From positions 62,001-126,000 of the forward strand of contig JAPLJF010000006.1 in NCBI GenBank assembly GCA_026388715.1: a stretch of 64,000 bases of DNA, given 5' to 3'. Source of the stretch: Deltaproteobacteria bacterium (lineage in GTDB: Bacteria; Desulfobacterota; Desulfobulbia; Desulfobulbales; Desulfocapsaceae). This document shows positions 9,925 through 61,902 of this stretch, one piece after another. The stretch's first letter is position 1. Each line of letters starts with the position of its first letter. The notes under the pieces were generated by a model. That model saw only the letters and a program-made list of their open reading frames with translations, had not been told where the DNA came from and searched no databases. A program made the translations under genes and the position numbers.

Positions 9925-10031
9925 GCCGCTTAAAGGCAACAGCCGGAAAAGATTGGATTTTGCCTTTAAGCGGCATAAGGTGCTATAAAAGAAAAGAGCG
10001 AAAAAAACTTGCTCTTTTCTTAACGGCACCT
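9925..10031. repeat. Dispersed two-hairpin repeat, family A copy 1
   Basis: Hairpin 2: GCCGCTTAAAGGCAA (9925-9939) against its perfect complement at 9960-9974. Then GGCATAAGG, then hairpin 1: AGGTGC at 9978 against GCACCT ending at 10031, with an inner GAAAAGAGC/GCTCTTTTC stem. The same order, spacing and flanks recur near 14882, 16459, 19261, 27055 and 61766. No coding capacity. Confidence 0.7.
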
Positions 10032-10070
10032 AAATATTGCCACGCCACCAAGAAAGCTGTATCATGTGCC

Positions 10071-13116: not shown

Positions 13117-13123
13117 GAATACT

Positions 13124-13178
13124 TAGGAGCCGTTACGAAATAACTTGGCCTTGTATGACTTTTTCGTTACGGCTCCTT
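13124..13178. repeat. Family A hairpin between abc-F and rhlE
   Basis: AGGAGCCGTTACGAAA on the left and CGTTACGGCTCCT on the right, followed by TATGCCG, as in other family A copies. A downstream part, CCATGTTATTTATTTACAACGGC (13202-13224), matches the copy ahead of htrA. It lies in the only space between the start of the ABC-F gene and the end of the helicase gene. Confidence 0.65.
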
Positions 13179-13225
13179 ATGCCGTTTCGAATATCTATTG
13201 GGCCATGTTATTTATTTACAACGGC

Positions 13226-14800
13226 TTATTTCCTTCTCCCTTTGTACGATCCACTCCTTGCTCCTGATCCACCCCTGCTTCCCGCACCACTGGACCGTCC
13301 ATGGCCTGCGGTCGTTCGTGAGCCATCCCTGTCGCCCGCGCCACTCGGCCTGGCCTGGCCTGCCGGTACGGCAACCAACAGAGACTCATCCGGCTGGATA
13401 CAGTGCAAGGTCTCCCCGATATAGGCCTCAATCTCGGGCAGGACAAAGGCATCTTCCTCGCAGGCAAAACTAATTGAAATCCCCGAGACCCCGGCCCGTC
13501 CGGTGCGGCCGATCCGGTGCACATAGTCCTCCGGTTCATAAGGCAGGGTGTAGTTGATGACATGGCTGATGCCGGTAATATGAATGCCGCGCCCGGCCAC
13601 ATCGGTTGCAATCATCACCTTGACCCGCCCTTCACGGAAGGCCTCCAGCCGCGACGTCCTTTTTTCCTGCGGGACATCACCGGTGAGCAGGGTGCATTTG
13701 ACACCGTGACGCTCCAGACGCTCACTGAGCCGTCTGGCCTCATTCTTCATATTGGCAAAGATCATAATCCGCTCATGTTCCTTGTGAGCGATCAGATTGT
13801 AGAGCAACGTAAATTTCTCGGCAGTCGTGGTCAGATAGACAATCTGCTGCACCGTGTCGACTGCCACCTGATCAGATTCGGTCTCAACGGTAATCGGCTC
13901 TCGACACCATTGGGCCGAGAGCTGCTTGACCTCATCGGTAAAGGTCGCCGAAAAGAGCATGGTCTGGCGCTTCTCTTTTGGGGGAGTTTTGTAGATAATC
14001 CGGCGCACATCGGGGATAAAACCCATATCGAGCATCCGGTCGGCCTCATCAATGACCATGATGGCGGCCCGATTCAGGTTGATGATCTTCTTACTTTCAT
14101 AATCAAGGAGCCGACCAGGGGTGGCTACCACCACGTCCACAGCCTGCTCGGTCAAACTTTTTTCTTGTTTACGATAATCGGTGCCGCCATAAGCCGAGAC
14201 GATCCTCAGGGAGGTATATTTGGCCAGGTCCTTGGCATCTTTGGCAATCTGGATGACCAGCTCACGGGTCGGGGCAATGATCAGGGCCCGCGGCGTACCC
14301 ACTGGTGCCGCTTTGCCCCGTTCTTGTTCCTGCAATAATCTGGTGAAAATGGCGATCAGAAAGACCGCGCTTTTGCCGGTGCCGGTGCTGGCTCGACCGA
14401 TAAGATCCTTGCCAAGAAGGGCATCAGGCAGGGCCTGGGCCTGAATAGGGGTACAGAATTGAAACTCCAGATCAGCAATGGCGTGCATCAGGGAAAGGGG
14501 TAGATCAAGATCATGGAACCTGGTCTTGCCCGCAACCGGCTCAACAGGAAACTGGGCAAGGTCCCACTCGGGTTCCTGCCGCTCTCTCTTTGGACGGGGA
14601 CGACGCAGCCGGGATCCGGCCTCTCCTGCCGGAGATTCTAACTGCTGCTCTGACAAGGCGGCCTGGTCCGGCAGTAATTCCTGGTGGGCAGCAGGTTGGG
14701 ACACAGGCTGCACGATGGCCGGATTTCCATGCTCTTTTTTGCCGGATCTGGCAATATTCCTGAGTTTGTTTCCGGCCTTTTTAAGAAATGCTTTTATCAT
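13226..14800 (-). CDS. DEAD-box RNA helicase, RhlE/RhlB type
   Basis: ATP-dependent RNA helicase of 524 aa. A basic N-terminal extension (1-100) precedes the Q motif (CTPIQAQALP), motif I ASTGTGKS, Ia PTRELV, DEAD (motif II), SAT (motif III), and motif VI HRIGRTGR. The C-terminal tail is Gly/Arg/Ser-rich (GSRGGSGARSGS), as in RhlE-like RNA-binding tails, but part of it coincides with a family B repeat (13277-13318). Likely in RNA decay or ribosome assembly. Start ATG at 14800 gives MIKAFLKKAG. Confidence 0.92.
   Translation of the reverse strand: MIKAFLKKAGNKLRNIARSGKKEHGNPAIVQPVSQPAAHQELLPDQAALSEQQLESPAGEAGSRLRRPRPKRERQEPEWDLAQFPVEPVAGKTRFHDLDLPLSLMHAIADLEFQFCTPIQAQALPDALLGKDLIGRASTGTGKSAVFLIAIFTRLLQEQERGKAAPVGTPRALIIAPTRELVIQIAKDAKDLAKYTSLRIVSAYGGTDYRKQEKSLTEQAVDVVVATPGRLLDYESKKIINLNRAAIMVIDEADRMLDMGFIPDVRRIIYKTPPKEKRQTMLFSATFTDEVKQLSAQWCREPITVETESDQVAVDTVQQIVYLTTTAEKFTLLYNLIAHKEHERIMIFANMKNEARRLSERLERHGVKCTLLTGDVPQEKRTSRLEAFREGRVKVMIATDVAGRGIHITGISHVINYTLPYEPEDYVHRIGRTGRAGVSGISISFACEEDAFVLPEIEAYIGETLHCIQPDESLLVAVPAGQARPSGAGDRDGSRTTAGHGRSSGAGSRGGSGARSGSYKGRRK
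13277..13318 (-). repeat. Family B repeat inside the helicase C-terminal tail
   Basis: The coding strand carries CGAACGACCGCAGGCCATGG followed by ACGGTCCAGTGGTGCGGGAAG. A 27-base part agrees with the non-coding copy at 16344-16370 at about 22 positions by hand alignment. Confidence 0.55.
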
Positions 14801-15480
14801 TCAATGCCTTACGGTGATGTTAAATTTATCAGATCATTCCAGCGTACCGATGGGAAAACCAATCGGGACGCCCCTGTGTTTAAGTGCCGTTATGAAATAA
14901 GCAGTGCTTTTTTGCTTATGTTATTACAGCACCTTATGCCGCTTCAAAGAAACAGCCAATCTTTACTGGCTGTTTCTTTGAGTGGCGTCTGGCAGATAAA
15001 ATACAAGGAGCCACGTTACTAAATAACTGTTCCATTTTTAACGATTTCGTTACGGCTCCTTATGCCGTTCTTGCCATATAAATGTAACAGTTATTTTATT
15101 CCAACAGCTTAAGGAGAGAAACTATACCATTTTAAGGTTGCAAACTCCAGATTATTAGGAGCCGTTACAAATAACCATTCCATTCGCAGACCATGACCGG
15201 AGTCTTCACTTACCTCCCCCAGTGTCGCTGACGCCAAGGATCGCCCCGGCACTATTCCTGACAAGATCATTGAAAAGAGATTGATTTCCATGGGGGGGTC
15301 GGCTAAAGAGTGACAATCATTGGATAGCTACAGCGGTCGCTTTTGCAAGTGCAGAAGAGATGGGTCTGAAGGCATCAACCCTGGTTTTCCGCATTACCTG
15401 CCTTTCGGATCAATAAAATATAAAATTTGCCCAAGGCCATGAGACCTTTTCCTGGTTCTGGCCGAGACCACAAAAAGCAA
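14801..15480. repeat. Gene-free 680-bp repeat cluster (family A x2, family A fragment, family B)
   Basis: No gene is supported here. Family A copy 14882-15000: AAGTGCCGTTATGAAATAAG ... CAGCACCTTATGCCG, then a hairpin of AAGAAACAGCCA against TGGCTGTTTCTT. A second copy is at 15005-15115 (AGGAGCCACGTTAC ... CGTTACGGCTCCTTATGCCG). A fragment TTAGGAGCCGTTACAAATAA lies near 15157-15176. At about 15190-15250 a family B-like segment contains AGTGTCGCT and GGAGTCTTCACTTACC. Short reading frames across it are repeat translations. Confidence 0.6.
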
Positions 15481-16284: not shown

Positions 16285-16556
16285 CAAAATGGTCAGAAAT
16301 GTAATAGTTATTTCGTAACGGCTCCTTGTAGGTTATCTGCCAGGCGCCGCTGGGCCATCCCTGGCCTGCGTAATAAAATAAGCAAAAAAGCACCACTGTT
16401 TATTTCGTAACGGTCTCTTGTATGATCTCCGGCAGATGTAATTTGATAGACGCCACACCAAGAAACAGCAGTAAAGATTACTGTTTCTTGGATGCGGCAT
16501 AAGAGGCCGTAAATAAAAAGAGCAAGAAAAGCTTTGCTCTTTTTATAACGGCCTCT
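16285..16556. repeat. Repeat cluster: family A copies with an embedded family B segment
   Basis: Contains TTATTTCGTAACGGCTCCTT (near 16306-16326). A family B core is at 16344-16370. A CCAAGAAACAG/CTGTTTCTTGG hairpin is at 16458-16491. Then GCGGCATAAG is followed by a hairpin AGAGGCCGT (16502-16510) against ACGGCCTCT (16548-16556). The last hairpin overlaps and supplies the stop codon of the adjacent Nudix gene. Confidence 0.65.
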
Positions 16557-17046
16557 AAATTTGTTGCAGAATGAGAAGGCCATCAGGGGTGAAGGGTTCA
16601 CGCAGACTGGATTCCAGGATCTGCGGGACTGACATGAAGCGCCCATCAGCAACCTCTTCCGGCTGCAAAGTGAACGGGCCTTCATGGGTACAGCGAAAGA
16701 CCCGCCCCCAGACCCGGTTGGTGGCGTCTTCAAAATAGTGATCAAAAAGCGGGATGAGGGAAATCCCGGAGATGCCAAGCTCTTCCGCCAGCTCCCGGGA
16801 CGCGGACTGCTCATAGGACTCCGAAGCCAGAACCACACCGCCGGCGGCCACATCCCAGTATCCAGGATAGATATCCTTGGTGGTGGTTCTTTTCTGGACA
16901 AAGAGTTGCTGCTTGTTATTGAAGACCAGGATATAGCTCGCCCGATGGATCAGGCCACGACTGCGCATGAGATGACGGGGCAGGACATCCGTCATCTTGT
17001 TGTCCCGATCAACAATCTGCACGATCTCTTCGGCTGGCGCATACAT
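16555..17046 (-). CDS. Nudix hydrolase (YfcD/IPP isomerase-like)
   Basis: 163 residues with a Nudix box GGVVLASESYEQSASRELAE-EL (about 90-111), fitting GX5EX7REUXEEXGU with GISG after it. The N-terminal part (VDRDNKMTDVLPRHLMRSRGLIHRA) is typical of YfcD-type proteins related to isopentenyl-diphosphate isomerase. Such enzymes cleave nucleoside diphosphate or related pyrophosphates; substrate unknown. The stop codon falls inside a family A repeat. It heads into the oxygen-defence block on the same strand but may be independent. Confidence 0.88.
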   Translation of the reverse strand: MYAPAEEIVQIVDRDNKMTDVLPRHLMRSRGLIHRASYILVFNNKQQLFVQKRTTTKDIYPGYWDVAAGGVVLASESYEQSASRELAEELGISGISLIPLFDHYFEDATNRVWGRVFRCTHEGPFTLQPEEVADGRFMSVPQILESSLREPFTPDGLLILQQI

Positions 17047-19260: not shown

Positions 19261-19370
19261 TTAGGGGCCGTAACGAAATAACCATTACATTTTGGTCCAT
19301 TTCATTACGGCCCCTTATGCCATTCATGGTGTTACAATGTTACAGTTATTTTTGAACGACGGCTTAGGAA
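19261..19370. repeat. Family A repeat between rubredoxin and desulfoferrodoxin genes
   Basis: TTAGGGGCCGTAACGAAATA ... CATTTCATTACGGCCCCTTA, then TGCC and a second part with GTTACAGTTATTTTTGAACG. Nearly the same sequence lies at 61766-61870, 42 kb away, making these the two closest copies in the window. Confidence 0.7.
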
Positions 19371-24897: not shown

Positions 24898-24932
24898 CAC
24901 GATATACCGGCTGTCCCCTCCAGCTATTTTTC

Positions 24933-25056
24933 TTGACACTCAAATTGAAACAGCGTATTCACGCCGTATGACGTTATTTAAATTTGTAATATTTCTATTG
25001 ACACTCAAACTCAAATAACGTACTCAGAAAGTATGACATTATCTTAATTTGTAATA
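24933..25056 (+). promoter_or_regulatory. 65-bp tandem duplication of promoter plus NikR-like operator upstream of nikMN
   Basis: Two copies of the same module, offset by exactly 65 bp. Each has TTGACA (24933 and 24998), a -10-like TATTCA/TACTCA 17 bases on, and a dyad TATGAC-N13-GTAATA (24967-24991 and 25032-25056). Half-sites with a 13-base spacer ahead of a nickel permease suggest NikR. A good AGGAGG precedes the gene. No cobalamin-riboswitch features are seen. Confidence 0.6.
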
Positions 25057-26259: not shown

Positions 26260-27057
26260 ATGAAATTTCCACATGGTTCTACAGTATCACACAGCATCCA
26301 CCCTCTGTCGGTGTATGTCCTCTTCTGCAGCATCCTCTCCTGTCCAGCTGCTGCTTTTGCCGCCCACCCGCTGATTACCGACGACGCGGGCACCATAGGC
26401 GGCGGCAAGGCCCAACTGGAAATGAACGGCGAGTATGAACATGAAAAGGAAGATGGGGTTACCACAGAAACAACGCAGGGAGCCGCAAGCCTCTCCTATG
26501 GGCTGAACGAATCAATGGATCTTATTGTCGGCCTCCCCTATCAACATATCAGGACCACGGATGACACAACCATCATGACCGATAATGGCTTCTCCGATAC
26601 CTCCATCGAGATGAAATGGCGGTTCTATGAGCATGACGACTTGAGCCTTGCCATCAAACCAGGAATCACCCTGCCCACCGGGGACGACGAAACGGAATTC
26701 GGCGCAGGAAAGGTGTCCTACCGCCTCTTTTCCATTATCTCCAAGGAAATGAATCCGTGGGCCTTCCATCTCAACCTCGGCTATATCAGAAATGAAAACA
26801 CCCTGAATGAAGAGAAGGACATCTGGCATGCATCCATCGCTTCCACTTTTGCCATGACTGATAATCTCAAGGCGGTTGCCAACCTCGGCGTTGAAAGCAA
26901 CACAGACGAACTTGCCGGCAACGACCCCGCATTCTTCCTGGCAGGCATGATCTACGCCCTGTCAGAGGAGCTTGATCTCGATTGCGGAATCAAATACGGG
27001 CTTAATGGTGCCGAGACCGACTACACTGCGCTTGCAGGGGTCACTTGGAGATTTTAG
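26260..27057 (+). CDS. Putative outer-membrane beta-barrel protein within the nickel operon
   Basis: 265 residues from ATG at 26260, with GGAG six bases upstream. Hydrophobic signal segment VYVLFCSILSCPAAAFA, with cleavage likely at AFA-AHP. The mature part opens HPLITDDAGTIGGGKAQLEMN, alternates polar and hydrophobic residues throughout and ends in WRF, the terminal Phe expected for Omp assembly. It resembles the phenol-degradation-type transporter fold (MetA-pathway family). Placed between nikMN and nikQ, it may be a nickel porin, but that is inference from position alone. The TAG stop merges with a family A repeat. Confidence 0.7.
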   Translation: MKFPHGSTVSHSIHPLSVYVLFCSILSCPAAAFAAHPLITDDAGTIGGGKAQLEMNGEYEHEKEDGVTTETTQGAASLSYGLNESMDLIVGLPYQHIRTTDDTTIMTDNGFSDTSIEMKWRFYEHDDLSLAIKPGITLPTGDDETEFGAGKVSYRLFSIISKEMNPWAFHLNLGYIRNENTLNEEKDIWHASIASTFAMTDNLKAVANLGVESNTDELAGNDPAFFLAGMIYALSEELDLDCGIKYGLNGAETDYTALAGVTWRF

Positions 27058-27150
27058 GTGCCGTTATGAAATGAGCAATGCTTTTTTGCTTATTTTACTA
27101 CGGCACCTTATGCCACTTCAAAGAAACAGCCAATCTTTTCCGGCTGTTTC
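27055..27150. repeat. Family A repeat inside the nickel operon
   Basis: TTTAGGTGCCGTTATGAAAT ... CTACGGCACCTTATGCCACTTCAAAG, then an AACAGCC/GGCTGTT hairpin. Closely similar to the copy at 14882-15000, including the GCAATGCTTTTTTGCTTAT centre. It separates the outer-membrane gene from nikQ and could act as an mRNA processing or attenuation hairpin. Confidence 0.65.
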
Positions 27151-27241
27151 TGAATGGCTTGAGGTCAACTTTCCACTTGCGCTTCCGCCTTCAACCTTCA
27201 ACCTTCAACCTAAACCCCTCTCTTCTGAATAAAGGAAAGGA

Positions 27242-30625: not shown

Positions 30626-31582
30626 ATGCAATTCATACTCTCCAAGCAGATTGAACCGACTCTGGCCTTTCATCTCATGAAGTTTGCTTTTCAGGCTTTT
30701 GAGAAAGAGGTTATTGAACTTACCCCAGAAGAATATGCGGAGGCATATCAACAGGCCTACCATCAGATAACCCTGCATGAACAGATCCTCCTGTCTGAGG
30801 CGGCCTGTGGGGTTGTAATTCCTGATAAACTGATTCAAACCATCTTTCGCTCAATCCAGACAGAGCATGGAGGTGAAGAAAATTTTTTCCTCCACCTCCA
30901 AAAAAACAACCTGCGACCAGATGAATTCTTCACCGTCCTGGGTAATGACCTGAAGGTAGAGACTATTTTAGCCAGAGTTGCCTATTATGCCCCACCCGTA
31001 AGCCATCAAGAAATACAAGACTATTACAATAGCCATCAAGGATCATTTTTTTTCCCAGAACAACGCAGTGCCCGTCATATCCTCATCAGTACCGAGAACA
31101 GATACTCGCATCTGCCGAAAGATGCGCTGCTGTACCGCACAATGCGCATTCACTCCCGCCTGCAAAACAAGCAGAAGGGCATGGACGATCAGGCAAGCGA
31201 ACCGGAAGCGAGACTCCGCGTGCCGCTCCCGCCAAAAATAGTAGAAGAGCGGCCCCAGAGCTTTATCCGGGAGGCCCAACTTCATTCTGACTGTACAACC
31301 GCGAGCGATGGCGGCGATCTAGGCCGAATCAGCCCCGGTGAGCTCTGTCCCACCCTCGATCATGCCCTTTTTCAACTTGCCGCAGGAGAGATCAGTCCAA
31401 TCATCCAGACAACACAAGGTTTTCATATCCTCTTCTGTGAGGCGATCCACCCCGGACAACGCTTAAACTTTCAGGAGGCCGCGCCCCAGATTCACCAGAT
31501 CCTGACCAGAGAAGCAAGGATCGATGCGTGCCGGATCTGGCTCAGATCTTTATTCCCTATCAATACCCATAACCTCAAATAG
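30626..31582 (+). CDS. NifM-like parvulin peptidyl-prolyl isomerase carrying an in-frame repeat insertion
   Basis: 318 residues. A helical N-terminal half (1-130) resembles NifM/SurA-type chaperone regions. The parvulin domain begins RSARHILIS (about 149) and resumes at GGDLGRISPGEL ... LAAGEISPIIQTTQGFHILF. Between them about 30 residues (around 181-213, DDQASEPEARLRVPLPP and following) are encoded by a family B repeat and interrupt the normal spacing. No signal peptide, so cytoplasmic, as for NifM, which matures nitrogenase Fe protein. No nif gene is in the window, so the client is unknown. Confidence 0.8.
   Translation: MQFILSKQIEPTLAFHLMKFAFQAFEKEVIELTPEEYAEAYQQAYHQITLHEQILLSEAACGVVIPDKLIQTIFRSIQTEHGGEENFFLHLQKNNLRPDEFFTVLGNDLKVETILARVAYYAPPVSHQEIQDYYNSHQGSFFFPEQRSARHILISTENRYSHLPKDALLYRTMRIHSRLQNKQKGMDDQASEPEARLRVPLPPKIVEERPQSFIREAQLHSDCTTASDGGDLGRISPGELCPTLDHALFQLAAGEISPIIQTTQGFHILFCEAIHPGQRLNFQEAAPQIHQILTREARIDACRIWLRSLFPINTHNLK
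31177..31256 (+). repeat. Family B repeat inside the NifM-like gene
   Basis: This 80-bp block aligns without gaps to the reverse complement of the block inside the lysR gene (32834-32913), about 59 of 80 bases identical by hand count. Contains GGGCATGGACGATCAGG at its left and GAAGAGCGGCC at its right end. Read in frame, no stop. Confidence 0.75.
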
Positions 31583-31852
31583 AGAGTCCAGCCCAGGCTC
31601 AAACCCGCTGAACCAGCGCCAAACGCCATCACCATCTGCTTCGCCACCAAAACGATCTACCTTGAAAAAGATGGCGCAGTGGAGCCGGTGGAGACCATCG
31701 AGCTATCTTGCGCGCCCTGACCGAGATTCTGGGTGCAGGAAGAAACGGGGCGCGTGTCGAGCTGAAAACAGGACATGACCCCAAAGACATCTTTCAGGTC
31801 GTCAGGATCATGCGGTTTGATGAAAAGAAGGAACGGTTGAGAGCTGAAGGGA
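31583..31852 (+). pseudogene. Possible decayed gene between nifM-like and yedF
   Basis: One frame reads ICFATKTIYLEKDGAVEPVE before a stop, somewhat like the start of small CooT-type nickel proteins (MCxATVYLEKDG). A second frame then runs LTEILGAGRNGARVELKTGH and on to MRFDEKKERLRAEGIRKD before a stop near 31866. The two do not join without frameshifts. Could be a broken small gene or chance; no intact gene is supported. Confidence 0.25.
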
Positions 31853-32482
31853 TCAGAAAGGACTGACGACCCTGTCGGCGCTGGCCATGCTGTCCATGAT
31901 CTCATACATATTCGTGGTCGTCCCCACCTGCAGATTCTTTGCAAGTTTGAAGAAATCAAGACAGGTGCCACAGGATAAGATCTTCACCCCTTTCTTCTCC
32001 AGGGCCTGCAGGGCCTCCAGGGCCTTGCCCGCAGTCGCCACCAGCTTGACCCCGCCGTTATAAAAAAGAATCCGGCTGGGTTGGGGGGAGACATCTTTTA
32101 TCGTGGCGACATAGGTCTGCAACAGGGCCCAGCCCAGCTCGTCGCTGCCCCGTCCCATGCAGTCCGAGGCAATCACATAAACCAGATTGCTACCAACCGG
32201 CAGCCCGCCTGGAATCTCACACCGGTAATCAGCCTCGTCAAAAGGGACAGACGGCCCGGCATCTTCCCTGGTATCTGCCGAAAAACTCAATCGAAAGGAG
32301 CCACCTGGAAGCGTTGTCAACTCCACCATGCAGTTTCGGCTGTGACCAAAACGTACCACATTATCCCTGGCGGCCTCATTATCGACAAGAATCTCAAAAG
32401 ATTTTGCCCCCTGTTCCAGCGCAGCCTTGGCCCGCAACACCGGCTCCGGACAACCCAACCCTCTACAATCTATCTGGTTCAT
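31853..32482 (-). CDS. yedF: YedF, selenium-metabolism sulfurtransferase-like protein
   Basis: 209 residues. N-terminal TusA/SirA-like domain with DCRGLGCPEPV (about 5-15, cysteine in CPxP position), and a C-terminal DsrE-like half with FYNGGVKLV and LSCGTCLDFF. This two-domain form is the YedF of selenium-using organisms. ATG at 32482 has AGGAG nine bases upstream; a start seven codons earlier is less likely. Divergent from a LysR gene of the type found next to yedF, supporting the pairing. Confidence 0.88.
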   Translation of the reverse strand: MNQIDCRGLGCPEPVLRAKAALEQGAKSFEILVDNEAARDNVVRFGHSRNCMVELTTLPGGSFRLSFSADTREDAGPSVPFDEADYRCEIPGGLPVGSNLVYVIASDCMGRGSDELGWALLQTYVATIKDVSPQPSRILFYNGGVKLVATAGKALEALQALEKKGVKILSCGTCLDFFKLAKNLQVGTTTNMYEIMDSMASADRVVSPF

Positions 32483-32682
32483 CGCAACTTCACTCCTTTC
32501 CAAGACACGAACAGCTGGAACTTTTTTTCAAAATAGCCCATGCCATCCTATTGGTCAAATAGATAATTCCTATCCGACAAGGCCTTTTTATGGTAAAATT
32601 TTATAAAAAAATAATTTTCTGGAAAGAAAAAACATCGTGAGAATCACAACCACCATCAAACCCGATAGCCCAAGGAAAAATC

Positions 32683-33672
32683 ATGGATCTCCATAAACTT
32701 GCCGTCTTCTGCAAGGTCATTGAGTTAAAAAGTTTTACCAGGGCCGCTACGGCCATGTCTCTTTCCCAGCCAACCATCAGTGAACATATCCGCGCCCTGG
32801 AACAGGAAACCGGACAGCGCCTGATCAACCGGCTTGGCCGCTCTTCCGCCACCCCTGGCTCGAGCGACACTCGGAGTTTCCCGTCCAGCTCGCTTACCTG
32901 GTCGTCCCTGCCCGGCGGCCGTGAGATCAGGACTTCTGAGTCCGGCAAAATCCTCTATTCGTATGCCAGAAAAATGCTCCGTTTGCAACAGGAGGCATTA
33001 GAGGCACTGGGACACTATTCGGGAAATCTGGCCGGACGGATGGCCATAGGCGCCGGCACCATTCCCGGGGCCTACATCCTGCCGGAAAAGATTGGCGCCT
33101 TCAAGAAAAGCCATCCTGATATCACCATCACCCTCCACATTGCGGGCTCCAGGACTATTGCCGGTGAGATCCTTTCCGGTGAGCTTGAAATGGGAATTCT
33201 CGGGGCCCAATGGCGGGAAAACGGCCTGATCTGGCAGGAGATCTTCAGCGATGAACTGATCCTGACCGTGGCCGCAGGGCATCCATGGGCCAAACTGCGG
33301 GAAATTTCTCTGGAACAACTGAGGGCAGAACCGTTTATCATGCGGGATGAATCCTCAGGGACAAGGCGTGCCCTCTCTCAGATTCTGGAGCAGCACGGCC
33401 TGAATCCGGCCCACCTGAATGTGGTGGCGGAAATGGGAACTACCGAGGCGATACGGCAATCGGTAAAGGCCGCCATCGGCATCTCCATCCTCTCATCTCA
33501 GGCCGTCAGGGAGGATATCGCTCATGGCAGCCTGGTAGAAGTCGCCATGCAAGGGATAAAAATGATCCGTCCTTTTTATATGGTCACCCGCAAAAACCAG
33601 GACCTGTCCCCTCTCTGCACGGCCTTCATCCAGACCCTGACAGTTACCAGCGACAAGAACGCTGAGACCTAA
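32683..33672 (+). CDS. LysR regulator of the selenium-metabolism type with an in-frame repeat insertion in its DNA-binding wing
   Basis: 329 residues against about 300 for the family. The helix-turn-helix is normal (ATAMSLSQPTISEHIRALEQ, about 22-41). After RLINRLGR (about 46-53) the usual four or so residues before TESGK are replaced by about 30 Ser/Pro-rich residues (SSATPGSSDTRSFPSSSL and following) encoded by a family B repeat. Normal LysR sequence resumes at SESGKILYSYARKML. The effector domain (about 120-310) is intact. The insertion falls in the beta-hairpin wing, so DNA binding may be altered. Next to yedF. Confidence 0.88.
   Translation: MDLHKLAVFCKVIELKSFTRAATAMSLSQPTISEHIRALEQETGQRLINRLGRSSATPGSSDTRSFPSSSLTWSSLPGGREIRTSESGKILYSYARKMLRLQQEALEALGHYSGNLAGRMAIGAGTIPGAYILPEKIGAFKKSHPDITITLHIAGSRTIAGEILSGELEMGILGAQWRENGLIWQEIFSDELILTVAAGHPWAKLREISLEQLRAEPFIMRDESSGTRRALSQILEQHGLNPAHLNVVAEMGTTEAIRQSVKAAIGISILSSQAVREDIAHGSLVEVAMQGIKMIRPFYMVTRKNQDLSPLCTAFIQTLTVTSDKNAET
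32834..32913 (-). repeat. Family B repeat inside lysR
   Basis: Gap-free counterpart of 31177-31256, in opposite orientation relative to the host gene. The minus strand contains GGGCAGGGACGACCAGG and AGTGTCGCTCGAGCCAGG. The host reads the other strand, so the element is open on both strands. Confidence 0.75.
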
Positions 33673-35530: not shown

Positions 35531-35574
35531 CTTGTTTCACCAGGGAGAAAAGAATCAATCAAAAGAGTCGGTGC

Positions 35575-35624
35575 AAAATAACCAAAAAAGCAGAAGTTAT
35601 TTTACAACAGCTCCTAAAAAACGT
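35575..35624. repeat. Family A fragment upstream of ilvD
   Basis: AAAATAACCAAAAAAGCAGA ... TTATTTTACAACAGCTCCTA, the decayed right half of a family A hairpin, in the space between divergent ilvD and pilU-like genes. Confidence 0.45.
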
Positions 35625-58084: not shown

Positions 58085-59035
58085 ATGCAAAAAACGATCA
58101 ATTTAAAAACGACGTTGCTGTTGGCTGGACTTTTATGTTTCTGGCTGTCATCTAGCGCACAGGCAACTGACAGAGTGGTGGTAATTCCCATGGGAGGTGG
58201 CACGCTGAAGAACGTCGTCACGGTGGCCAAGGCCAACGGCAAGTTTACCGATCCGTTGGCGGCGGTGAATTCGATCACCGACGCGAGCGCGACCAACCCC
58301 TACCTTGTCCTTATCGCTCCCGGGCAATATACACTGACAACAACCCTGGTGATGAAGCCCTACGTTGATATCACCGGCAGCGGTGAAAACGTCACCCTGC
58401 TGACCGGCGCAATCAGCACCACTAACCCCGATGCAACCTCGGCGGTCGTCAAAGGGGCCAATCATGCCACCTTGTCTAATCTCAGTATCAGCAACACTGG
58501 CGGCAATCAGTATTCGCTCGGCATCTACACCACAGGACTTGGCATCTCAGCCCGGCTGCAACAGGTGCTCGCAACCGCGACAGGAGGAACGTTCAACTTT
58601 GGTGTCCTCAACGTCACCAACTCCTCACCGATAATGACCGACATGAATGTAATCGCGGGGGGTGGAGGAACGGCCAACGCTGGTGTAGTTAACAACATAA
58701 ACTCCTCACCGATAATGACCGAGGTGAATATAGTCGTGTTGGGAGGAACAATTATTAACTATGGTGTGTACAACATCGCCAGCTCCTCACCGATAATGAC
58801 CGGGCTGAATACAGTTGTATCGGGAGGAACAACTAATTATGGTGTATACAACGACTCTTCCTCCCCAATAATTCGACGCAGCTCAATAGCAGGTGCCACG
58901 GACGGTCTTGCTAATTCTAGCGCTACGGCAACAATCAGTCAGTCCACCATCCTCAATGGTGTCTCTGGCGGAGGATACACGTGTGTGGCCTGCGATAACG
59001 GCGCTGGTGGTGCACTTAATGCGGCCTGTCTGTAA
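58085..59035 (+). CDS. Exported parallel beta-helix protein with internal repeats
   Basis: 316 residues from ATG at 58085 with GGAGG upstream. Signal peptide TLLLAGLLCFWLSSSAQA. The body is a pectin-lyase-like right-handed beta-helix (LIAPGQYTLTTTLVMKPYVDITGSG and coils after). About 178-262 holds three near-repeats of SSPIMTxxNxVxxGGTxxxYGVYN, 24-28 residues each. The extreme C-terminus has CVACDNGAGGALNAACL, with three cysteines. Likely a surface or secreted protein; catalytic residues of polysaccharide lyases were not identified. Confidence 0.75.
   Translation: MQKTINLKTTLLLAGLLCFWLSSSAQATDRVVVIPMGGGTLKNVVTVAKANGKFTDPLAAVNSITDASATNPYLVLIAPGQYTLTTTLVMKPYVDITGSGENVTLLTGAISTTNPDATSAVVKGANHATLSNLSISNTGGNQYSLGIYTTGLGISARLQQVLATATGGTFNFGVLNVTNSSPIMTDMNVIAGGGGTANAGVVNNINSSPIMTEVNIVVLGGTIINYGVYNIASSSPIMTGLNTVVSGGTTNYGVYNDSSSPIIRRSSIAGATDGLANSSATATISQSTILNGVSGGGYTCVACDNGAGGALNAACL
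58617..58870 (+). repeat. Tandem coding repeats in the beta-helix gene
   Basis: Three diverged units beginning at CTCCTCACCGATAATGACCG (about 58621, 58702, 58786), spaced 81 and 84 bases, multiples of three, with a partial fourth at 58858. The first 19 bases of each unit are identical, a substrate for in-frame gain or loss. Confidence 0.7.
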
Positions 59036-60896: not shown

Positions 60897-61786
60897 AGGA
60901 TACCTTCCCCATCCTGCTGACCGGGGCCAATGGCCAGGTCGGGTATGAGCTGAATCGTCTGGCCGCGGCAAGGGGCTGCGCCCTGAAGGGATTGACCCGT
61001 CAGCAGCTCGATATCGGGGACGGTGAGGCGGTGGAGCAGATCGTGAGCCGATTGCAGCCCTCCCTTGTCATCAACGGCGCCGCCTACACTGCAGTGGACA
61101 AGGCTGAACAGGAAGTAGATGCCGCCATGCGGGCCAACCGGCAGGGGCCAGCCAATCTGGCAGCCACCTGCCAGGCGCACCGCATCCCCCTGATCCATCT
61201 CTCCACCGATTATGTCTTTGATGGCAATAAATCCGGGGCCTACCATGAAGAGGATCCGGTCGCCCCCACCGGTGTGTACGGCCGGAGCAAGTGGGAGGGA
61301 GAAGAGGAGGTGCGCGCCAGGCTGAGGCAGCATCTGATCATCCGGGTCAGCTGGGTCTTCGGACCACACGGCAATAACTTTGTCAAGACCATGCTCCGAC
61401 TGGCCGCCGAGCGGGACGAGTTGCGGGTGGTTGCTGATCAGCACGGATGTCCGACCTACGCCACCCATATTGCCGAGACCCTGCTGACCCTGGCAGACAG
61501 GATCAGGGAAGGGATTGATGTTGCCTGGGGCACCTATCATTTTTGCGGCATGCCGGAGACCACCTGGCACGGCTTTGCGGAAACAATCATCAGAGAGGGC
61601 CTGGCCATGGGTCTTCTGGATCACGTGATACCCGTGCATCCCATCACCACCAGCGATTATCCGACGCCCGCGCAACGACCCCAGAATTCAGTCCTCGATT
61701 GCCGCAGGATCATAAAGACCTTTGACATGAAACTCCCCAGTTGGCAGGAAGGATTAACCACCATGTTAGGGGCCGTTACGAAATAA
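60893..61786 (+). CDS. rfbD: dTDP-4-dehydrorhamnose reductase, C-terminus inside a repeat
   Basis: 297 residues. NAD(P) loop TGANGQVGYEL (about 9-19), STDYVFDG, YGRSKWEGE with the catalytic Tyr-x3-Lys (about 128-132). Makes dTDP-L-rhamnose. The last codons and the stop (LGAVTK then TAA) are translated from the left end of a family A repeat, so the original C-terminus has probably been changed by repeat insertion. The catalytic core is unaffected. Confidence 0.95.
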   Translation: MKDTFPILLTGANGQVGYELNRLAAARGCALKGLTRQQLDIGDGEAVEQIVSRLQPSLVINGAAYTAVDKAEQEVDAAMRANRQGPANLAATCQAHRIPLIHLSTDYVFDGNKSGAYHEEDPVAPTGVYGRSKWEGEEEVRARLRQHLIIRVSWVFGPHGNNFVKTMLRLAAERDELRVVADQHGCPTYATHIAETLLTLADRIREGIDVAWGTYHFCGMPETTWHGFAETIIREGLAMGLLDHVIPVHPITTSDYPTPAQRPQNSVLDCRRIIKTFDMKLPSWQEGLTTMLGAVTK

Positions 61787-61870
61787 CCATTAGCTTTTTA
61801 TCCATTTCATTACGGCCCCTTATGCCGTCCACGGTGTCCTGATGTTACGATTATTTTTCAACGAAGGCCT
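61766..61870. repeat. Family A repeat at the rfbD/rfbB junction
   Basis: TTAGGGGCCGTTACGAAATA ... CATTTCATTACGGCCCCTTA, then TGCCGTCCACGG and a TTACGATTATTTTTCAACG tail. Nearest relative of the copy at 19261-19370. It overlaps the rfbD stop and separates rfbB from the other three rfb genes. Confidence 0.7.
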
Positions 61871-61902
61871 AGCCCTGATAAAACAAGAAAAAAGGAAATA
61901 AA

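Follow-up and report, generated by a model that had tools for sequence, protein, structure and literature searches.

Copies of a 54-nucleotide two-hairpin unit in frame in two neighboring genes of a Desulfocapsaceae bacterium: a probable short mobile DNA element

The DNA analyzed here, hereafter the window, is a stretch of 64,000 nucleotides (nt) from a Deltaproteobacteria bacterium of the Desulfocapsaceae (contig JAPLJF010000006.1; G000:C35:62001-126000 in our numbering, in which G000 is the window's own genome). Two neighboring genes in the window, encoding a NifM-like peptidyl-prolyl isomerase and a LysR-type regulator, each contain an 81-nt in-frame insertion, and the two insertions resemble each other on opposite strands. 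Our analyses indicate that each block is a copy of a short non-autonomous mobile element, based on a 54-nt unit with two hairpins that recurs in unrelated genes and in miniature inverted-repeat transposable elements (MITEs). We assign this reading, together with the mechanism proposed below, a probability of roughly 0.62.

Two in-frame insertions and the unit within them

An ungapped inverted match links positions 31177-31254 on the plus strand with 32836-32913 on the minus strand (76% identity over 78 nt) and is the only inverted pair of at least 20 nt reported in the 3.5-kb region. A preliminary description of this DNA had aligned 31177-31256 with the reverse complement of 32834-32913 without gaps at 59 of 80 bases, and a base-by-base recount of the two blocks returned the same 59/80. 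Within the window's own 2.97-Mb genome the BLAST E value of the pair is ∼4e-9, and additional copies lie on other contigs. The same description viewed the blocks as frame-keeping inserts in two unrelated genes, and alignment of both host proteins with orthologues agreed with this: each insert is 81 nt long, and most orthologues are without the extra residues. Specifically, the alignments used 12 of the 29 non-own loci returned for the NifM-like gene and 18 of 29 for the LysR gene, the remainder being more distant. The whole NifM-like insert is missing in 11 of the 12 aligned orthologues, the twelfth (G001) keeping a shorter remnant at the same place, while the LysR insert is absent in 15 of 18, with the congeners G009, G014 and G015 holding shorter in-frame versions at the same site. 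Both host genes are under purifying selection. The ratio of nonsynonymous to synonymous substitution (dN/dS) of the NifM-like gene is 0.15-0.27 against four orthologues (0.18 for one pair in which both sites are empty), and that of the LysR gene is 0.12-0.25 against five (0.15 for one such empty pair). The LysR block had also been placed in the wing of the DNA-binding domain, where the AlphaFold model indeed puts residues 52-79, at low confidence, between two short wing strands. This is the only internal stretch of more than four residues with a predicted local distance difference test score (pLDDT) <50; elsewhere in the first 100 residues the mean pLDDT is 77-89 per ten-residue block. The model of the NifM-like protein was uninformative (mean pLDDT 49.3).

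Comparison of further copies by eye showed that the repeat is not the single 80-bp element first supposed; it consists of a 54-nt unit (18 codons) and a 27-nt module, module A, which the LysR insertion of G009 lacks. The window inserts are thus 81 = 54 + 27 nt. The unit has the consensus GCAGGCCAGGGATGGCCCAGTGTCGCTCGCTCCAGGGATGGATGAAGAGCGACC over 104 gap-free copies, indel-bearing copies being excluded from this set and from the 105-copy gap-free set used below. It starts (C)GCAGG and finishes GCGACC, and its ends are not inverted copies of each other. Module A occurs beside or within the unit in either orientation. At another locus G004 and G009 have the 27 nt and the remaining rows covering that site do not, and one variant-unit copy (L189) appears to enclose a full second unit together with an A module.

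The hairpins are deduced from comparison of copies, not from single-copy folding. Across 73 distinct copies, the two-hairpin structure was paired in 89.9% of cells, compared to 83.4% in shuffled and 29-47% in slid controls. Sixty-one cells had changed on both sides, against a shuffled mean of 17.9 (0/500 as high), and the covariation score was 0.212 versus 0.109, counts that kinship among copies can inflate; in the alignment used (A2), helices 2 and 3 belonged to the aligning model and helix 1 did not. Other families keep the stems with different sequences (GCCGGGC/GCCCGGC and GTCGCGC/GCGCGAC), which points in the same direction as the slid control. Both hairpin tips are alike, C-ANGGAN-G, and no covariation was found between the two loops of a unit.

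Table 1. Coordinates of the host genes, insertions and unit-free MITE copies in the window
Feature	Position	Strand	Details
Host gene 1, NifM-like PpiC/parvulin-type peptidyl-prolyl isomerase, 318 aa	30626..31582	+	Pfam Rotamase, E 1.8e-16
In-frame insertion, 81 nt (27 aa), unit sense	about 31175..31255	+	Residues 184-210 of NifM-like protein
27-nt module A inside NifM-like insertion (limits approximate, by eye)	31190..31218	+	Similar modules in L005-L008, L025, L031
Covariance model R1 match	31204..31254	+	E 3.6e-10; copy among the model's 12 building sequences
Host gene 2, LysR-type regulator, 329 aa	32683..33672	+	Pfam HTH_1 and LysR_substrate
In-frame insertion, 81 nt (27 aa), unit antisense to LysR gene	32836..32916	-	Residues 53-79, wing of DNA-binding domain
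27-nt module A inside LysR insertion (limits approximate, by eye)	32872..32900	-	Absent in G009 copy
Covariance model R1 match	32836..32886	-	E 3.8e-13; copy among the model's 12 building sequences
Unit-free 107-bp MITE copy	13123..13229	+	Repeat family D1; TTTCGTTACG/GCTCCTTATG uninterrupted
Unit-free 107-bp MITE copy	15006..15112	+	Repeat family D1; TTTCGTTACG/GCTCCTTATG uninterrupted
Unit-free 107-bp MITE copy	19261..19367	+	Repeat family D1; TTTCGTTACG/GCTCCTTATG uninterrupted
Unit-free 107-bp MITE copy	61766..61872	+	Repeat family D1; TTTCGTTACG/GCTCCTTATG uninterrupted

Insertion sites, reading frames and distribution

Filled and empty sites of the same gene define the length of the insertions. 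In murG, 54 nt are gained in G000, G006 and G016, 108 nt in G002 and 99 nt in G012, and the other nine rows with sequence hold no unit (lengths +0 to +6). Similarly, murD of G009 and the site at L217:7929 have each gained 54 nt, and ilvD of L102 has gained two units, or 108 nt. In clean cases the target duplication is at most 1 nt. The base preceding the unit is a C at 51 of the 62 distinct stand-alone left ends, and no other feature of the flanking DNA is strongly conserved. Head-to-tail copies with 54-nt spacing occur both in genes (L188, L195, L210, L223) and in one MITE (L202, three units). One region of the window's own genome (L217:6434-8461, on G000:C30) holds a 675-residue open reading frame (ORF) with four units in both orientations, adjoined by a 568-residue ORF with a 99-nt insertion.

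For a survey of placement, 164 matches were reduced to 139 distinct copies at 110 loci, drawn from the loci fetched for strong matches rather than from every match. Sixty of these loci have the unit embedded in coding ORFs, 13 are doubtful and 37 are not coding. The embedded units lie in sense orientation at 24 loci and antisense at 36, in line with the earlier suggestion that both strands of the element are open, and the bias between orientations is not significant (24/60, p 0.16). Among the 86 stand-alone loci, 58 (67%) are embedded, 13 doubtful and 15 not coding; random 54-nt intervals of the same loci (n = 2,971) are embedded in 70.7%, doubtful in 10.4% and not coding in 18.8% of cases. 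Therefore, stand-alone units are not depleted in genes. Pfam matches were obtained for 29 of the 30 host ORFs scanned, with labels that include MurG, MurE, MurD, MutL, ATP synthase gamma and alpha, thymidylate kinase, HsdR, TetR, a class II tRNA synthetase, an RlmL-like methylase and a RecD-like helicase; host gene names finer than these labels are our interpretation.

Genic copies use five reading frames repeatedly and the sixth once, doubtfully. At 44 merged sites, one of which held two frames (L189, L312), the counts for frames -0, +1, +0, -1, -2 and +2 are 21, 9, 7, 3, 3 and 1, compared to 11.3, 7.2, 4.8, 9.8, 4.8 and 6.0 expected when stop-free frames and the codon position of the target C are taken into account (p 0.0016, in a test devised after the counts were known and with a sole +2 case, the MITE array of L202, that is probably not coding). 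The favored frames encode polar, Gly/Ser/Pro-rich or charged peptides (GRSSSIPGASDTGPSLAC, QARDGPVSLAPGMDEERP), and the rarer ones are richer in Trp, Leu or Met (VALHPSLERATLGHPWPA, SLFIHPWSERHWAIPGLR, RPGMAQCRSLQGWMKSDR). From this we infer that the frame preference reflects selection on the host protein.

The preliminary description had called for a nucleotide search of the genome and its relatives, and numerous further copies were found, which left its reading standing. A covariance model, R1, built from 12 copies, gave 52 matches in the window's own genome at E<=1, 31 of them at E<0.002. At E<=0.001 it matched 15 of the 17 genomes of the genus, including all 11 good ones, with 9 to 103 matches each and the most (103) in G015. 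Beyond the genus, where searches covering more than 40 genomes used stricter filters and lose weak matches, R1 at E<=1e-5 matched 24 of 257 genomes of the order, namely the 15 genus members plus nine genomes of families f3, f4 and f5; this search gave no match in any other genus of the window's own family. In f4 (L295), a gene matching ATP synthase gamma contains three tandem units and one matching the alpha subunit contains a single unit. In f3, a TetR gene has two units, the second cut short, and an HsdR-like type I restriction gene carries one in its N-terminal part at the same site in two genera (L274 and L297, genomes G226 and G038), while two of the f5 copies sit in MITEs. A further model, R2, was run against 395 genomes of the phylum and matched 14, of which eight lie beyond the order (f41, f100, f109); one of these copies (L327) lies in a gene that we read as acetylglutamate kinase. 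Because the distribution across order and phylum is patchy, it suggests horizontal spread. Plasmid and phage records contained no copy of one 191-bp query, and viral contigs no copy of one exact pattern.

Proposed mechanism and alternative explanations

We propose that the 54-nt two-hairpin unit inserts in either orientation, usually beside a C, in one or more 54-nt lengths and without a target duplication of more than 1 nt. Local amplification would then generate head-to-tail arrays, and the 27-nt module could be gained or lost inside the unit. Because 54 and 27 are divisible by three and most frames of the unit are stop-free, insertion would add a peptide segment to a gene instead of breaking it, and copies would persist in genes, where selection on the host protein would retain the frames read as polar, linker-like peptides. 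Insertion, its lengths and orientation, tandem copies, compensatory change and purifying selection on both window genes have direct support in the comparisons above. The IS200/IS605 elements move as single-stranded DNA handled by an HUH/Y1 enzyme, have hairpins at their ends and cause no target duplication. Since the unit combines hairpins near both ends with head-to-tail arrays and the absence of target duplication, an HUH/Y1-like enzyme acting in trans may likewise move it in the form of single-stranded DNA hairpins, an assignment by analogy that we make tentatively and at less than even odds. A wider interpretation, which we consider possible but doubtful, is that the unit represents a new class of mobile element fit for translation, an 18-codon twin-hairpin unit that is moved by an uncharacterized enzyme without target duplication, enters genes as freely as other DNA and leaves the host to sort out soluble-linker frames. 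In that case the unit would act as a natural means of inserting linkers into essential proteins throughout Desulfobacterota.

Several observations weigh against the mobile-element reading. Some insertions do not have the expected length: murD has shorter pieces (+39 nt in G016, G006, G002 and G012; +33 nt in G001), and 99 nt, a 60-column gap and 51 nt were found at L217:9190, L217:7016 and L216:6822, respectively. We take copies whose length is not a multiple of 54 to be older, altered ones. The ORF test relies on a simple codon score and left 50 of the 110 loci non-coding or doubtful, and some of its positives are weak, as at L139, where the unit lies upstream of the likely start codon of a Pfam-matched gene. 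Two of five covariation measures on the 73 copies are not clearly above shuffles, namely pairs changed on both sides (6 vs. 5.6 shuffled, 257/500) and further pair types (23 vs. 20.0 shuffled, 26/500). Single copies fold no better than shuffles, the two window copies having z scores of 0.22 and -0.40, a single MITE-borne copy -2.29 and module A 1.58. Movement is deduced from between-species comparison rather than observed, and the mobilizing enzyme was not found, a longer autonomous relative not having been searched for. Y1 matches are present in all 17 genomes of the genus, the window's own genome having only a Y1 fragment, and the 30 Y1 loci examined (of 75 genus matches), each taken with ∼1.5 kb of DNA to either side, hold no unit. 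A link by proximity or copy number to Y1 transposases, including those associated with repetitive extragenic palindromes (REPs), termed RAYT, was accordingly rejected (0/30 loci; rho 0.13, p 0.61).

The pattern at the LysR site is also not straightforward. The insertion is present in G000, G009, G014 and G015, yet not in G004 and G008, which are nested within the G000/G009 clade, and G014 and G015 are distant from that clade in a mur-cluster tree. Because the dS of the LysR gene is 0.40 between the window's own genome and G015, compared to 1.05 between the own genome and G014, the LysR allele may plausibly have been transferred between the lineages of the own genome and G015; the pattern could also stem from exact loss of the insert or from several insertions at the same position.

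Among the alternatives, two survive best, and we consider each improbable. One starts from a 107-bp MITE with imperfect inverted ends, TTAGGAGCCGTTACGAAATAAC and GTTATTT...ACGGCTTA, that elsewhere in the genome carries the unit. The unit could be cargo of this MITE, as in a BOX-like modular element, and stand-alone units could be left behind after loss of the MITE ends or recombination. Consistent with this, MITE flanks are found at 24 of the 110 loci, the unit occupies a single point of the MITE in the copies inspected, and unit-free MITE copies exist, four of them in the window (Table 1). However, clean stand-alone gains amount to precisely 54 or 108 nt and show no trace of a MITE, genes hold tandem arrays just as a MITE does, and MITE-borne copies are mostly non-genic (22/24). 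The simplest account of the association is a single insertion of the unit into the MITE, which multiplied afterwards.

The window also contains a second MITE-like family (TTTAGGTGCCGTTATGAAAT...) at 14879-14977, 27053-27151, 9933-10034, about 16494-16580 and 35562-35619, some copies of which have an additional hairpin, AAACAGCCAATC..GGCTGTTTC. By eye, copies of this family in G016 (L196), G004 (L203) and G003 (L213) also hold the 54-nt unit.

In the other of the two, no more probable than the first, the unit is a minisatellite-like repeat that needs no dedicated enzyme and spreads through slippage, template switching and gene conversion. The constant period of the tandem arrays, the junction trinucleotides, which by eye are alike within an array, and the shorter in-frame copies in the LysR genes of G014 and G015 would all fit such a process; single units in unrelated genes whose empty orthologues show no neighboring unit would not, and slippage has no need of the compensatory changes in the hairpins.

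We think it very unlikely that the unit is an RNA element, a pair of CsrA-type GGA hairpins spread or kept through CsrA binding. The excerpted source gives CANGGANG as the CsrA-binding consensus (PMC6692469), both loops match it as hexaloops in 83 of the 105 gap-free copies, and CsrA is encoded in 11 of the 17 genus genomes. The motif was spotted after the fact, however, and CsrA was not found in G000, G005, G008 and G015 (94-97% complete), all of which carry units and the last of which has the most matches; nor was it found in two further genomes of the genus that are 55-63% complete. Moreover, among genic copies both loops are conserved in 34 of 41 antisense cases but in only 11 of 18 sense ones. 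Known RNA families were rejected, which also counts against this reading: Rfam gave no match at the gathering score in the window and, in seven unit loci, six chance-level matches that were all below it. Finally, ordinary divergence, in which the extra residues are old protein parts and the DNA likeness is chance, found no supporting point; the E value of ∼4e-9 and the copies across the genus count against it, and absence from most aligned orthologues refutes it.

Two other features of the window were seen. Three direct repeats at 58582-58833 have a spacing of 81 nt (27 codons if in frame) and perhaps encode a repetitive protein, and at 24925-25054 a 65-bp stretch occurs as a tandem pair (78% identity) whose members each include a TTGACA motif and might represent a doubled promoter.

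Relationship to known repeat systems

A literature search, with limited coverage of subscription literature, found no description of the 54-nt unit family. Its filled and empty sites of one gene in sister species make it testable how such repeats move and how constrained proteins, which we read as MurG, MutL and ATP synthase gamma, accept insertions of at least 18 residues. Non-autonomous elements of the IS200/IS605 type resemble the unit in having hairpins near both ends and no target duplication, any duplication at the unit being at most 1 nt. As a class, MITEs differ, as the unit has neither terminal inverted repeats nor a target duplication of more than 1 nt. BOX-type elements contain a variable-number module within an element bearing inverted ends, a likeness to the MITE-borne copies; unlike such a module, the unit is also found by itself in genes. 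Mycobacterial interspersed repetitive units (MIRU) are dispersed units of ∼50 bp that also occur in tandem and keep reading frames, and they lie mostly between genes of operons; we draw this likeness and difference from general descriptions, not from sequence. Also set beside the unit by description only are multicopy sequences of G. metallireducens, which, in the portion of the source available, occur even in genes (PMC2700814), and a palindromic amphipathic repeat reported in another partly accessible paper (PMC2996958).

The REPs of the GTAG and CGTC super-families are, in the accessible part of PMC3733652, short dispersed hairpins that are sometimes intragenic, including in repair and tRNA synthetase genes. 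Their intragenic clusters encode 43 to 82 residues, head-to-head dimers predominate and CGTC REPs lack an adjacent transposase (PMC3733652, same part). The unit is likewise a short dispersed hairpin element kept by base pairing and sometimes intragenic, and shares with CGTC REPs the lack of an adjacent transposase. In contrast to REPs, it has no GTAG or CGTC tag before the stem (in copies starting GACGG, CGTC is confined to the 3′ terminus of the opposite strand), it has two unlike stems, it is arranged head-to-tail and is not mainly intergenic, and units do not flank the Y1 (RAYT) transposase genes in the 30 Y1 loci.

Rickettsia palindromic elements (RPEs), to which the preliminary description had likened the two blocks, are presented in the available excerpts of two papers (PMC2229807, PMC10969869) as palindromic repeats of 105-146 bp or about 150 bp that occur in intergenic DNA as well as, in frame, within conserved genes unrelated to one another; one host protein that was assayed remained active with altered substrate affinity. 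Set beside these descriptions, in-frame insertion in many unrelated, conserved genes holds for the unit as well. The comparison needs amending in other respects: the unit is 54 nt, not 80, with two hairpins in place of a long palindrome of ∼105-150 bp; it forms 54-nt head-to-tail arrays, which those excerpts do not mention for RPEs; part of the family resides in MITEs; and intragenic palindromic repeats beyond Rickettsia had already been described as REPs, going by the part of PMC3733652 cited above. Moreover, the unit's hosts are free-living Desulfobacterota, and both of its strands are read. The best-known examples of peptide-adding selfish DNA come from the reduced Rickettsia genomes, and here a large system of this kind is found in free-living sulfur bacteria.

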